Below, in pieces: positions 2,841 through 27,537 of a DNA stretch of 44,878 bases. The number at the start of each line of letters is the position of its first letter. Position 1 is the first letter of the stretch. This stretch comes from Planctomycetota bacterium (GTDB lineage: Bacteria > Planctomycetota > Phycisphaerae > UBA1845): the NCBI GenBank assembly GCA_030616775.1, contig JAUWWQ010000035.1, positions 1-44,878 on the forward strand, given 5' to 3'. The translations under genes and the position numbers were made by a program. Below the pieces are notes generated by a model, which did not search any database, had not been told where the DNA came from, and saw nothing but the letters and a program-made list of their open reading frames with translations.

Positions 2841-3332
2841 ACCAGGCCTCCGTTAGCTATGCTCGTGGGCAGAGTTGCATTCCTCCAGGTCAGTCCGGAG
2901 GGTACCTGCCACATGCCAACCTACCACTCGCCGCTCTGACGCTCCATACCCCGATCCTTGCCCTCGGATTTGTCCTCACGGGTGATCGACAAGCTGTCGG
3001 CAATGCTGAGGAATCGATCAGGCCCAAGGGTGTCAGCAATTGGACGATAGCCCACGTGGGCGACCGCGTGGCTCGTGACATAGCAGGTTCGATCGGCCTT
3101 TGAGGGCCGTTCAAACGTGTGTCGAACCCGTGTTTTTTAGAGAAACCAAGCCCATCTTGGCCGGGGGATGTATGTGCTGACCCCTGGCCATATTTTATTG
3201 AGCGTAACGCCAGACGGGTATCGCACCGATAACGTGGGCCGTTGCTCTGCCATTCTGGCAGCGGCAGCGACGATGTGGCATTTCACGGGCAGAATCGTTG
3301 TGTAACCTATTGTCATTACGGTGGTTACGCTT
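2841..3332. other. Intergenic region between the divergent dgcN-like and clpB genes
   Basis: No intact gene is seen. One plus-strand frame (about 2892-3102) stays open with a hydrophobic LAALTLHTPILALGFVL stretch but has no start or ribosome site, so it is not called. The region must hold the promoters of both divergent genes. A GTAACC...GGTTAC inverted repeat at about 3302-3328 lies just upstream of the candidate clpB promoter. Confidence 0.4.
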
Positions 3333-3360
3333 TTGACGCTCCTGGTACACAGTGTGCTAT
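3333..3360 (+). promoter_or_regulatory. Candidate clpB promoter
   Basis: TTGACG (3333-3338) is followed after 16 bases by TGCTAT (3355-3360). The -35 is good and the -10 is weak. No CIRCE operator (TTAGCACTC-N9-GAGTGCTAA) and no clear sigma-32 box was found, so the mode of heat control cannot be read from the sequence. Confidence 0.3.
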
Positions 3361-3374
3361 CCGGTGTCTCGGCA

Positions 3375-3396
3375 GGCGGGATTATGCGATCCCGCC
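3375..3396 (+). promoter_or_regulatory. Perfect hairpin in the clpB 5' leader
   Basis: GGCGGGAT and ATCCCGCC form an 8-bp perfect stem around the 6-base loop TATGCG. It ends four bases before the AAGGGG ribosome site (3400-3405) of clpB, whose ATG is at 3413. The position would allow it to affect ribosome access. No function is shown. Confidence 0.5.
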
Positions 3397-3412
3397 GTGA
3401 AGGGGTACACAC

Positions 3413-6052
<2,640 letters not shown>

Positions 6053-17855: not shown

Positions 17856-17985
17856 ATAACCTTGCCGAAAGGGTCTTGCGACTCAACCGAACCGCGTTAT
17901 TCTGCGGTACCGGTGCGGCGTGTCGGCGGGCCCGCCCATGCTCGTTTGGCAAACTAAGTGACTCCCCGTGCACGGAGGCGAAACC

Positions 17986-19014
17986 GTGGCGAGATACCCA
18001 ACATACCCACGAAGACGACGGCGCAGGCGGGTTCGTACGAGCTTGCTGCTTGTGGCCGTTATGGGTCTGGCGGCTGGCATCTGGTGGATCTTCATCCGTG
18101 ACGAATCGTCTACTTCCGTGGACGGCAACCTGGCGTTGGGGCCTCAGCCAACCCTGACCACGGATCGCCCCGAGATCCTCCCGGAATCGCAGCCACGACC
18201 GGGAATCTCGGAAAAAGGCGATTTTCCGGTGCTTGGGACGCCGGTCGACCCCACGGACTCCCCAGGGCAGCGGGCGGAATCGCTCCTGGCTGCAGGACAA
18301 CGGGCATTGGAAAGCGGCGAGCTGGTCACTGCCCGGGCATATCTGAGTGAGGCATTACAGCTCGGGCTCCGGGAATCGGAGCTGTCCCCGGTTCGTGCCG
18401 AGCTGACCCGGATTGGCAATGAGACGGTCTTCTCGCCCAGCCTCTTCGAAGGCGACCCGCTTGTATCCCGCTACGTAGTCAAGCCCGGTGAAACGCTGGG
18501 GAAGATCGCCAAAGCGAACAAGGTCTCGGCGGACCTGTTGGCAGCGATCAACCACATCGCCGACAAGAATCGCATTCGCGCCGGCCAGACCATCAAGATC
18601 ATTGCCGGCCCGTTCCGCGCGGTCATTCACAAGCGGTCCTATTCGCTGGACATGTATCTGGGTAACACGTTCATGAAGCATTTCAAGGTCGGCCTTGGTG
18701 CGGAAGGCAGCACGCCCAGCGGCCAGTGGCAGGTGGGGACGAAGCTTACCAATCCGACCTACTACCCGCCGCGCGGCGGGCGGATCGTAGCCGCTGACGA
18801 CCCTGAAAATCCCCTTGGGGAGCGGTGGATCGGTCTGGTTGGTGTGGGTGGAGAGGCCGCCGGCCAGGAACGCTATGGAATACACGGAACCATCGACCCG
18901 GAGACCGTCGGACAAAACGTCTCCTTGGGCTGCATCCGCATGTACAACGAGGATGTCGAAGCGCTGTATACTTATCTGATTCCCAAGCATTCCACCGTGA
19001 CAGTGCGCGACTGA
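17986..19014 (+). CDS. L,D-transpeptidase with LysM domain (YkuD family)
   Basis: Counting from the GTG at 17986, the protein is 342 residues. A cytoplasmic Arg-rich tail (RRRRRRRVR) precedes one membrane anchor (LLLVAVMGLAAGIWWIFI). A helical spacer follows, then a LysM peptidoglycan-binding domain (YVVKPGETLGKIAKANKVSA, about 160-205) and a YkuD catalytic domain with H300 (YGIHGT) and nucleophile C316 (SLGCIRM). It should make 3-3 crosslinks or attach proteins to peptidoglycan outside the membrane. A GGAGG (17974-17978) seven bases before GTG 17986 makes this a better start than the GTG at 17968. Its TGA originally probably overlapped the start of the next gene (see repeat 19011-19125). Confidence 0.92.
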   Translation: MARYPTYPRRRRRRRVRTSLLLVAVMGLAAGIWWIFIRDESSTSVDGNLALGPQPTLTTDRPEILPESQPRPGISEKGDFPVLGTPVDPTDSPGQRAESLLAAGQRALESGELVTARAYLSEALQLGLRESELSPVRAELTRIGNETVFSPSLFEGDPLVSRYVVKPGETLGKIAKANKVSADLLAAINHIADKNRIRAGQTIKIIAGPFRAVIHKRSYSLDMYLGNTFMKHFKVGLGAEGSTPSGQWQVGTKLTNPTYYPPRGGRIVAADDPENPLGERWIGLVGVGGEAAGQERYGIHGTIDPETVGQNVSLGCIRMYNEDVEALYTYLIPKHSTVTVRD

Positions 19015-19125
19015 TGGCCTGGATTATCGGTTGTGGGACCGACTATCCAGTCGGTCAACAGATCCCGGTGTGCCGGGAGAAAGCCTGTCCCACATTGGCT
19101 CCGAGGGATAGCTGATGGCCTGGAT
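19011..19125. mobile_element. 63-bp two-hairpin element inserted between 14-bp direct repeats
   Basis: The element proper spans 19032-19094 and has outer arms TGTGGGAC and GTCCCACA. Inside are two smaller stems (CCGAC/GTCGG and CCCGG/CCGGG). The 14-base sequence CTGATGGCCTGGAT occurs at 19011-19024 and again at 19112-19125. Each copy contains a TGATG in which the transpeptidase stop overlaps the AhpD-like start. The left copy supplies the stop actually used, and the right copy the start actually used. Insertion into an overlapped junction, with duplication, explains this. A second copy in inverse orientation is at 30922-30984. It encodes nothing, so any mobility would need proteins supplied from elsewhere. 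Confidence 0.7.
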
Positions 19126-19663
19126 CAAACTCATTGACGAAGACGAAGCTTCCGGGCTGCTGGGCCGTATCTACGAGGAGGTCCGCAAGCGCGCCGGCCG
19201 GGTCTACAACATCATCAAGATCCAAAGCAATAACCCACCCGCACTTCAGTCGATGCTCGAGCTCTACCGGGCGGCGATGCATGGTGACTCGCCTTTGACA
19301 CGGGCTCAGCGGGAGATGCTGGCCGTCGTGGTGTCCAAGACCAACGGCTGCCGGTACTGAGTTGAGGCCCATGCTTATGACCTCCGGGCTGAGGTCAAGG
19401 ATGCCGCCTGGGTCGGGCAGATCAAGACGGACTATACCAAGGCCGAGCTCACTAAGGTCGATCGGGCCCTGTGCGATCACGCCGTCAAGCTGACGAAAAC
19501 ACCGGCCGAGGTGACCGAGGCTGACATTGATCGTTTGCGGAAGCTGGGCCTTTCCGACCAGGCCATCAACGACGCCACCCAGGTGATCTCGTTCTTCAAC
19601 TACGTCAACCGCATCGCCGACGGCCTGGGCATCGACCTCGAACAAGGTATGGCCACTCGATGA
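19115..19663 (+). CDS. Probable selenoprotein: AhpD-like peroxidase-related enzyme with in-frame TGA at the resolving Cys
   Basis: From ATG 19115 the frame runs to a TGA at 19358-19360 and then stays open and protein-like to a TGA at 19661-19663, 182 codons in all. This matches the usual length of the carboxymuconolactone decarboxylase/AhpD 'peroxidase-related' family. The family's CxxCxxxH redox motif reads C79-R-Y-TGA-V-E-A-H86, so the TGA takes the place of the second cysteine. The flanking sequence is family-like on both sides (REMLAVVVSKTNGCRY before, VEAHAYDLRAEVKD after). A SECIS-like hairpin lies 17 bases past the TGA. Selenocysteine in place of cysteine is the simplest reading. A TGC/TGT-to-TGA nonsense mutation is the alternative. 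The selenium machinery (selA, selB, selC, selD) is not in the window. Confidence 0.75.
19378..19397 (+). promoter_or_regulatory. Candidate bacterial SECIS element
   Basis: TGACCTC and GAGGTCA form a perfect 7-bp stem around the loop CGGGCT. The loop starts 24 bases after the TGA, and G is its second base. This agrees with the general rules for bacterial SECIS hairpins: within the coding region, loop about 16-37 bases after UGA, and a G among the first two loop bases. It is coding sequence at the same time (residues about 88-95). Confidence 0.6.
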
Positions 19664-23778: not shown

Positions 23779-26541
23779 ATGACCGATATCCGCCGACAGA
23801 TCCTCGACATACTACTTGTAGGCTTAGCAGGACAAATCGGCGCGTTGGGGCCCGTCGTGCGGGCTGACTCACCCGATGGGCCATCCGGGACTCGACCGGC
23901 ATCACAGACCGTCCTGAAAGTGGCCCGCTCGGATGACGGGCTGACATTCAATGATACTGGAGAGGTTTTTCTCCAACACGCCGCCGCACCGGATCTCGTG
24001 GCCCTCCCGGATGGCCGCCTGCTGGCCGTATTCGACTATGCGGGCAGCGGCGACGCGGGAGAGCCTACCGTGATGGCCGTCTCGCGATCGAGGGATGGAG
24101 GTCGCTCCTGGTCTCCGGCTAGAGCAGTCCGCTTCAAAGGACGCAGCGCTCGAAGAGTCAGGGGCTACCACGGAGACCTGGTGCGAATGCCCAATGGGCG
24201 GCTCCGCCTGTATTTCCTGGCTGAGGCCGGCTACCGAAGCGCCAAACACCGCGCCAAGTCGAACGGCCCGGCCATGATACGTTCGGCCGTGACGAACGAC
24301 GGTCTGAACTATCACCTTGACAGCCGCACCCGCATCCGTCCTGGGCGAGCGCAGGACTTACATCTGATGACCGCTTGGATGGGCAAGGTGTTGCACCTTT
24401 ACGCCGCCGGTTTGGACAACCGGGCCGCCGGGTCCGACAAAAGTATGTCAATTACACGACACTACGTCTCCCCCGATGGGCGCCGCTTCGTTAAGCTCCG
24501 TTCAATCCAGGTGTCCGACGCGGACTTTGTCGGCAGCATTGTGTCAACCGACGATGGCCTGCGGGCCTATGTGTCAACTGATGGCGGCATCAGTTCCCTC
24601 GTGTCTCACAACGGTGGTGACTGGAGGCTCGAACCCGAACCTCGTTTGTCGGTTGGGTGGGATCCGGCCGTGGTCCGGCTCGATAACAGCTCGTATCTGA
24701 TGTTGTACTGCGCCACGGCGGACAAAGAGTCGCTAGCGTCGTCGCAACTTGTCGACGCGTCGGAGTTTTTTGCTGACGGTGACGACGGGGAGATGACACC
24801 CGATTCAGAGTGGGCCGAGGATTTCGCTGAGGATCTGGCGGAGCAAACAGCGGAGGATGGAGCGTACGCGGATGCGGATGACGCGACGAGCGATCCTACG
24901 TATGGCGATGCGGGCGATGCGGGCGATGCGACACACGACGCCACCTACGCCGATGCGGGGGATATGGCGGAGGCCGCCCCTGCGGATGGTGGTCAAATCG
25001 GATCAACCGACGCCGGCGGGAACAGCGCCGCCTCGGCCGACGCGAAACAGGCCGGCGCACAGGCAGGTAACCTCACCCCGCCGGACTTAGAACAAACCGC
25101 GGGACTCGAACCGGGTGCGTCAGCCGACGGCTCGTACGATACAGAGTACGAACAGAATCTCACCGGCCTTGAGGAGTGGGACCCAATCGCCACCGACGGA
25201 TTCGCCCCGCTCCCTAACTTCAAGAACAGGATCGACTACTTCGAATGGTACCGTGAATATGCCCTCGGTCACCCCGAGGACAATGCATACTGGGCGTATG
25301 CGTCCTTTATGCCCGACCCACCCGGCCCACCCGGCGATCCAGCAACCAAACCCGAGTGGCCTGAGCTGAACGACATGTTCAACAGCGACTACGACGGTCC
25401 GCCGGGACCCTGGGACCCGGCCGAGCATCCCGATTGGGAGACCTCGTACCAGGCTTCCCAAGAGGTACTCGAGCTATTCCGCGAGGCGACGACGCACGAG
25501 GGATACGCCTCACCACCCGACGTCAAGTTCGAGGGCCGCATCGGCCCGGTTGAAGATGCCAATCTGCTGCTCGGCATCCTTCTGCCGTCGCTCAGTAATC
25601 ACCGGGCCATGGTGAAGGCAACGCTGGCGGCTGCTTGGCGGATAGAGGGCGGCAAAGTGTCGTCCGGGCGTATGGTGCAGGCGTGGGAGACGTCGTTGCG
25701 CGGTGCGAATCACATTGGCAGCGGGGCTACGCTCATCGAGGATCTGGTGGGAATCGCGGATCGAGCGATGGTTCAGAAGACGGCGCGTTGGGCACTGAAG
25801 CACGACGTCTTCTCCGGCGACGAACTCGAAACCGCGCTGGATATCCTGAGGGAGTACGATCGCGACGATCGAGACCCGGTTGAGATGCTGCGAGGCGAGC
25901 ACGCTATGTGCATGGACCTGACGCAGTACTTGTATATGCCGCCCGGGGCAAACGGCACGCCGAAATCTTATAAGCCGGAACGTCTGAACGGCGTGTTCGA
26001 TTTCTCGCCCGAGATGATCGACCGGATAGCGCGCATGGAACCGGATGAGGTGCACGCCTCGATCAACGCTTTCGATAACCACTACCGGAAGCTGGTCGAA
26101 CAGTTCCGTATCGGCTATCCGGAGGTGCGTACGGCCGACATCTCGGCCATCACGGAGGAGCACCTCCGTACGACTCCGTTGACCGAGTTCCTCATGCCCA
26201 ACTTGAGCCGCTACTACCAGTTGAAGGCTCGGTCGAAGGCCTCGCGCCGCGCGACGCAGCTTGCCTATGCGACGCGTCTTTTCAAGGAGCGGAACGGGCG
26301 CTGGCCGGAATCGCTCGATGAGTTGCCGCCTGAGCATGGCCAGAATATGCGCATCGATCCGTACTCCGGAGATTACTTCGGATATCAGCTCACCGACGAC
26401 GGCCCGAAGATCTACTCGGCCTCCGAAAACGGCGTCGACGACGGCGGTGTCCACTCACCGCGCTGGGCCGACGAAATCGAAAACGACGCCGGCTCCGACG
26501 ACCACGTCTTCTGGCCGCCGCAACCCAGACGCAAACGTTAG
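23779..26541 (+). CDS. Exported chimera: sialidase-like propeller, Asp/Ala-rich linker and pseudopilin-like C-terminus
   Basis: The 920-residue protein has an N-terminal hydrophobic segment (ILDILLVGLAGQIGALGPVV) acting as a signal. The first third is a BNR/sialidase-like propeller with an Asp-box near 103-110 (SRDGGRSW) and further repeats (SDDGLTF, SPDGRRF). A low-complexity acidic region, about 350-430, repeats ADAGD and DAT units. The rest (about 440-900) is helical and ends in LAYATRLFKERNGRWPESLDELPP, which resembles the C-terminal part of type II secretion pseudopilin-like planctomycete proteins. I do not know a characterised protein with this combination. Enzyme activity on glycans is possible but not shown. 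Confidence 0.75.
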   Translation: MTDIRRQILDILLVGLAGQIGALGPVVRADSPDGPSGTRPASQTVLKVARSDDGLTFNDTGEVFLQHAAAPDLVALPDGRLLAVFDYAGSGDAGEPTVMAVSRSRDGGRSWSPARAVRFKGRSARRVRGYHGDLVRMPNGRLRLYFLAEAGYRSAKHRAKSNGPAMIRSAVTNDGLNYHLDSRTRIRPGRAQDLHLMTAWMGKVLHLYAAGLDNRAAGSDKSMSITRHYVSPDGRRFVKLRSIQVSDADFVGSIVSTDDGLRAYVSTDGGISSLVSHNGGDWRLEPEPRLSVGWDPAVVRLDNSSYLMLYCATADKESLASSQLVDASEFFADGDDGEMTPDSEWAEDFAEDLAEQTAEDGAYADADDATSDPTYGDAGDAGDATHDATYADAGDMAEAAPADGGQIGSTDAGGNSAASADAKQAGAQAGNLTPPDLEQTAGLEPGASADGSYDTEYEQNLTGLEEWDPIATDGFAPLPNFKNRIDYFEWYREYALGHPEDNAYWAYASFMPDPPGPPGDPATKPEWPELNDMFNSDYDGPPGPWDPAEHPDWETSYQASQEVLELFREATTHEGYASPPDVKFEGRIGPVEDANLLLGILLPSLSNHRAMVKATLAAAWRIEGGKVSSGRMVQAWETSLRGANHIGSGATLIEDLVGIADRAMVQKTARWALKHDVFSGDELETALDILREYDRDDRDPVEMLRGEHAMCMDLTQYLYMPPGANGTPKSYKPERLNGVFDFSPEMIDRIARMEPDEVHASINAFDNHYRKLVEQFRIGYPEVRTADISAITEEHLRTTPLTEFLMPNLSRYYQLKARSKASRRATQLAYATRLFKERNGRWPESLDELPPEHGQNMRIDPYSGDYFGYQLTDDGPKIYSASENGVDDGGVHSPRWADEIENDAGSDDHVFWPPQPRRKR

Positions 26542-26778
26542 CACCACCGATCCAACATCCGCCGCCCGGCCACAAACCGCCCGCGGCCCACAACAGCGAC
26601 CCCATCCGTCTCCGACCCGGCCCAAGCCCGTGCGGGGACTGCGTAGCCCGCTGCGTCCACGGAGCAACTGTCTACCACGTTTCTGATAGAGCGGCTCACG
26701 AGATTCCTGGACAGGGACCGATTCCAGTAGTAGGATGATTCGGATGGGTTTTGTTAGGTAGGTGTGGGAAGTCTGACG
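26542..26778. other. Intergenic gap before the DUF5131-TcmP pair
   Basis: No gene is seen. An AGGTAGG-like purine stretch just before 26779 may serve as the ribosome site. A long antisense frame across this gap is a shadow. Confidence 0.35.
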
Positions 26779-27537
26779 ATGGCTGACGGTTCGCGCATCG
26801 AGTGGACGGAGGCTACCTGGAACCCCGTGACCGGGTGTACGAAAATCAGCTCCGGATGCAAGCACTGCTATGCGGACCGTATGGCGTGCAGGCTGAAGGC
26901 AATGGGGGTGCCCCAGTACCGAAACGGGTTTGCATTGACGCTGCACTCCGACATGTTGCAGGTCCCGCTGCGCTGGAGGAAGCCAAGACTCGTTTTCGTC
27001 AATTCTATGAGCGACTTGTTTCATGAGGCTGTGCCACTCGGCTTTATCGAACGGGTGTTTGCGGTCATGGAAGGCGCTCGGCAACACACCTTTCAGGTCT
27101 TAACAAAGCGACCAGAAACGGCGCTCAGATTTGCAGGGAGTGTCCCTTGGCCACCGAATGTGTGGCTGGGAACGAGCGTCGAGAATGCGTTCTACGTTTA
27201 CCGTGTTGCGGCCCTGCGCAGAATCCCAGCCAAGGTCCGGTTTCTCTCTCTGGAACCGCTACTCGGCCCGATCCCAAGGCTTGGCCTACGTGACATACAT
27301 TGGGTCATAGTGGGTGGGGAATCGGGTCCGGGAGCCCGCCCTATGGACCCAGACTGGGCCAGACAAATCCGCGATCGCTGTCGTGCTAGCGGTGTTCCCT
27401 TTTTCTTCAAGCAATGGGGTGGCATAAACAAACTGCGCGCCGGGCGGATACTGGACGGGTGCACGTGGGACGAGATGCCGCTTCTCAGGGCGGAAAGGGA
27501 GAGCACTAATGTTCGAGTTACGACCTCCCGAAGATGA
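26779..27537 (+). CDS. Three-Cys-motif protein, DUF5131 (phage Gp37/Gp68 family)
   Basis: From ATG 26779 the protein is 252 residues, starting [20 protein letters not shown] as family members do. The three-cysteine motif [16 protein letters not shown] could hold an iron-sulfur cluster and resembles a radical SAM motif with changed spacing. Other family blocks are [51 protein letters not shown] and FFFKQWGG. It overlaps the TcmP gene by 29 bases. The pair occurs in phages and genomic islands; its biochemical role is not established as far as I know. Confidence 0.9.

Follow-up and report, generated by a model that had tools for sequence, protein, structure and literature searches.

An AhpD-like gene whose in-frame UGA, at codon 82, is predicted to be decoded as selenocysteine (Sec) was identified in the genome of a Planctomycetota bacterium. 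We place the probability of this reading, in which Sec82 is the catalytic residue, at about 96%. The gene lies in the window, that is, the whole 44,878-nt stretch of DNA that was analyzed (contig JAUWWQ010000035.1). Judged from sequence, Sec insertion at this codon is very likely; it had been proposed in a first-pass annotation made from the DNA alone, and it agrees with the conservation of the TGA, a covarying bacterial SECIS (bSECIS) hairpin and the presence of selA, selB and selD. The features discussed below are listed in table 1.

Table 1. Positions, in the window, of the AhpD-like gene and associated features.
Feature	Position	Strand	Length	Details
LysM + YkuD L,D-transpeptidase gene, upstream neighbor	17968..19014	+		Directly upstream in 7 planctomycete loci (L056-L062)
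AhpD-like (peroxidase-related, TIGR01926/PF02627) selenoprotein gene	19115..19663	+	182 aa	Terminal TGA 19661-19663
In-frame TGA, predicted Sec codon 82	19358..19360	+		U82 of C79-R-Y-U82-V-E-A-H86
Predicted bacterial SECIS hairpin	19378..19397	+		Arms 19378-19384 / 19391-19397; loop 19385-19390, CGGGCT

The gene occupies a frame of 182 codons whose sole interruption is the TGA at codon 82, and the positions given for both in the first-pass annotation (19115-19663 and 19358-19360) proved correct, as did its placement of Cys79 three residues before the TGA and His86 four residues after it (motif C79-x-x-U82-x3-H86). In profile searches, the read-through protein matched the TIGR01926 family "peroxidase-related enzyme" with 161.4 bits over residues 2-173 (cut-off 81.8) and PF02627 (CMD) with 47 bits. 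Thus, homology extends through the TGA, and the earlier impression of 100 family-like codons beyond it is borne out. Homologs are collinear with the selenoprotein over residues 1-182. The best match in PDB was 6k40 ("Alkyl hydroperoxide reductase AhpD"; residues 5-173, E = 4.7e-29), which we take to be DR1765 and whose CxxC aligns at C79/U82. A scan of the whole window for read-through open reading frames (ORFs) with a single TGA revealed this gene alone as having convincing protein character. In the plain ORF list it appears as a truncated ORF of 81 amino acids, and a standard annotator is likely to call it in that form.

We compared relatives at several taxonomic depths. Of the 114 genomes searched in the same order, 73 have a match to the AhpD-like protein; that of a congener is 90% identical, and the remaining members of the orthologous group are about 45-71% identical. 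Almost all of these matches contain exactly one TGA; a few show an additional stop, which in most cases lies close to or at the frame's end. TGA was present at the equivalent site in 95 fetched homologous loci from several phyla, with the motif C-x-[Y/F/H]-U-x3-H and with Cys at -3 and His at +4 in all 95. Public records place the orthologous group in Planctomycetota (Phycisphaerae, Pirellulaceae), Anaerolineae/Chloroflexi, Myxococcota and Actinomycetota. Remoter homologs have TGC or TGT at this site and retain Glu at -15, Cys at -3 and His at +4; in 21 Cys homologs, Cys stands at the Sec position with flanking residues as in the Sec loci. One locus of the Cys group (L180) was read in a wrong frame, which leaves the conclusion unchanged. 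Homologs thus have either TGA or TGC/TGT precisely at residue 82, in line with the check that the first-pass annotation had proposed.

These comparisons bear on the possibility that the TGA is a true stop, leaving a pseudogene or a truncated protein of 81 amino acids. TGA is indeed an ordinary stop in this genome, ending 15 of the 25 long ORFs of the window as well as the AhpD-like gene itself, and an intact tRNA-Sec gene was not found in the assembly (see below). However, dozens of genomes, at 45-90% identity, retain both the TGA and the 100 codons downstream and show no frameshift, and the hairpin that follows covaries; such conservation would not be seen if the gene were dead or truncated. 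No decay of the reading frame was seen in the relatives, including the downstream frameshifts in close relatives that had been named as a sign of a dead gene. We consider a true stop very improbable.

A sequencing or assembly error at a codon that is really TGC or TGT would be compatible with the occurrence of these codons in Cys homologs, but it has a negligible probability: the same TGA recurs together with the SECIS in independent assemblies from many studies, and a 90%-identical congener assembled as a single contig has both. The presence of TGA in assemblies of independent genomes thus contradicts a TGC or TGT at 19358-19360, which had been raised earlier as a way in which the Sec reading could fail.

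In a sample of 246 genomes covering Planctomycetota, about 125 matches were listed, and only five of them lacked a TGA; in this sample, Sec is almost always used, and it is strongly favored by Planctomycetota in the AhpD-like TIGR01926 subfamily. The order and the phylum also contain several other Sec clades of AhpD-like proteins (CHYUxxHHGAGL, CxFUxxxHAAVA and others), whose short hairpins are differently placed (L107, L113, L115-L128, L162-L167, L173, L194-L197), and some of their members are second copies within one genome. Partial or tandem duplicates of the AhpD-like gene were also observed (3001-3537 and 4794-5009 of locus L058; G184:C155), and in genome G184 a Sec copy adjoins a copy without an in-frame stop.

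A 7-bp hairpin with G at loop position 2, at a distance typical of bacterial SECIS elements, had been noticed downstream of the TGA, and our analysis agrees: it has a 6-nt loop that starts 24 nt past the UGA, and folded alone it has an energy of -9.4 kcal/mol (z = -2.4). The published bSECIS model calls for an apical loop of 3-9 nt, an upper stem of 4-16 bp, a minimum free energy of at most -7.5, G in the first two loop positions and a distance of 16-37 nt from the UGA (PMC13188914). In line with the SECIS check that had been recommended for 19361-19400, the hairpin satisfies this model and covaries. The same rule set was passed by 80 of 103 Sec genes versus 6 of 25 Cys genes, and Cys-type homologs are mostly without the hairpin. 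By itself the structure is unremarkable, because 15% of synonymous recodings of the same peptide produce the full 6-bp core and the z-score of the wider region is about -0.5; the whole region of 40-48 nt folds no better than its shuffles (z -0.3 to -0.5).

Conservation of the hairpin across relatives exceeds chance by far. It is fully paired in 56 of 65 distinct orthologs, compared with 8.6 expected and a maximum of 17 in 1000 trials under a synonymous-recoding null; 97.4% of alignment cells are paired, and two-sided changes number 13 versus 2.7 in shuffles, all of these being counts among orthologs related by descent and hence not independent events. When the register was slid, the pair count came nowhere close to that of the predicted hairpin. 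Codon usage follows the pairing: a Leu codon within the hairpin is CTC in 63 of 63 cases in which Leu is present, and a change of Asp from GAC to GAT accompanies a change of Val (GTC) to Ile (ATC) in 12 of 13 cases, so that the pair is preserved.

We also searched the host genome (a draft assembly of 4.45 Mb, 97.8% complete) for the Sec-decoding machinery, which the first-pass annotation had proposed as a check. selB and selA adjoin each other on contig C45. Two selD genes were found: one on contig C69 is a 741-aa open frame, the size of known Ndh-SelD fusions, and the other (G000:C70:30451-31374, L025) has an in-frame TGA of its own (CAGUAGK). In the same order, selA is present in 95 of 114 genomes. 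selA, selB and selD are present, but a search with the tRNA-Sec model found no intact tRNA-Sec gene (selC) in the draft assembly, nor was one present in the 10.5-kb region of the selA/selB contig; hits just below the cut-off in this genome are ordinary tRNAs.

What was found of selC is a stretch of 38 nt (C24:2192-2229, L100) that matches the 3' end of the congener selC with 97% identity. This remnant lies 2.2 kb from the end of its contig, and that end starts inside a serine recombinase gene (PF07508). Among genomes of the family, 40 of 50, one congener included, have a match to the tRNA-Sec model over the gathering cut-off. The weaker of these, at 47-53 bits, might be tRNAs of a different kind, but those of 95 nt with 61-71 bits look genuine. 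ARAGORN called four matches as tRNA-SeC with anticodon TCA, among them that of congener G048, in which an intact selC is followed 2.7 kb downstream by a copy of its 3' 72-74 nt (G048:C1:137801-140592, L101). selC thus looks like an integration site or hot spot in this genus. The 3' remnant in the host and the intact selC of the congener suggest, rather than prove, that the intact selC of the host lies in sequence missing from the bin, i.e., in an assembly gap.

The missing selC might also be taken to allow UGA to be read as some other amino acid, by reassignment (such as to Trp or Gly) or by suppressor read-through. Nothing specific points to such a reading, and TGA serves as a normal stop throughout, selA, selB and selD are present in the genome, and the codon lines up with a redox Cys and has a conserved SECIS after it. 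We regard it as extremely unlikely.

With Sec at codon 82, decoding would follow the ordinary bacterial route, in which tRNA-Sec is charged with Ser, SelD supplies the selenophosphate used by SelA, and SelB binds the SECIS hairpin downstream of the UGA. Sec82 would replace the second, catalytic Cys of CxxC, and Cys79 would be the resolving residue for a selenenic acid. All residues of the AhpD proton relay are found in the selenoprotein (E67, C79, Y81, U82 and H86), the Glu at -15 being present in 83 of 95 Sec homologs and 21 of 21 Cys homologs, and Glu67, Tyr81 and His86 may form the relay. By analogy with Cys homologs, the protein would be an AhpD-like thiol/selenol oxidoreductase that most likely serves to reduce peroxide directly and/or pass electrons to a peroxiredoxin. 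A tentative and rather doubtful suggestion is that the Planctomycetota subfamily, almost always Sec-containing and linked through a conserved gene order to a LysM/YkuD L,D-transpeptidase, may act in a redox process of the cell envelope and not as a generic cytosolic peroxidase. Elsewhere in the window, a DUF5131 protein is encoded at 26764-27537 (337 bits), adjoined by a 920-aa ORF (23779-26541) that gave no match in a Pfam search.

AhpD-like selenoproteins with CxxU were reported in 2005 from the Sargasso Sea (27 sequences, COG2128; PMC1088965) and again in the GOS data (299 sequences, "AhpD-like 1"; PMC2398784), and a 2026 catalog lists an "AhpD-like protein, TIGR01926, CxxU" (PMC13188914, citing PMC1088965). 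Since the family is already cataloged, the gene described here is a new member of a selenoprotein family known since 2005, and it changes no general picture. Its corrected form adds a SECIS family with clear covariation support, which is useful for training selenoprotein predictors. Like the Sargasso and GOS proteins, it belongs to the TIGR01926 subfamily, with Sec as the second residue of CxxC and a SECIS directly downstream; it differs in coming from a Phycisphaerae-type planctomycete genome. The papers on these proteins report many Cys homologs overall, whereas our Planctomycetota sample almost always has Sec. Other AhpD-type selenoproteins (NF041238 with CFYUT, CMD-like PF02627 proteins and NF041537 ArsM-AhpD) share CxxU at the same motif but belong to different subfamilies, and the present protein scores below the cut-off of NF041238 (68.8 vs. 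175).

Among Cys-containing relatives, a mutant of the Deinococcus radiodurans AhpD-like protein DR1765 is reported to be sensitive to H2O2 and the CxxC cysteines to be required (PMC8945050); DR1765 has CxxC and no Sec codon, in contrast to the CxxU of the present protein. The relay is composed of Glu118, Cys130, His132, Cys133 and His137 in Mycobacterium tuberculosis AhpD and of Glu36, Cys48, Tyr50, Cys51 and His55 in Pseudomonas aeruginosa PA0269 (PMC3141380). Both PF02627 proteins are distant in sequence and have Cys where the present protein has Sec, and the motif of M. tuberculosis AhpD lies in a C-terminal helix pair, unlike that of the present protein. However, all three share the arrangement of Glu at -15, Cys at -3, an aromatic residue at -1, Cys or Sec at 0 and His at +4, and these matching relay layouts place Sec82 at the equivalent of Cys133 and Cys51.
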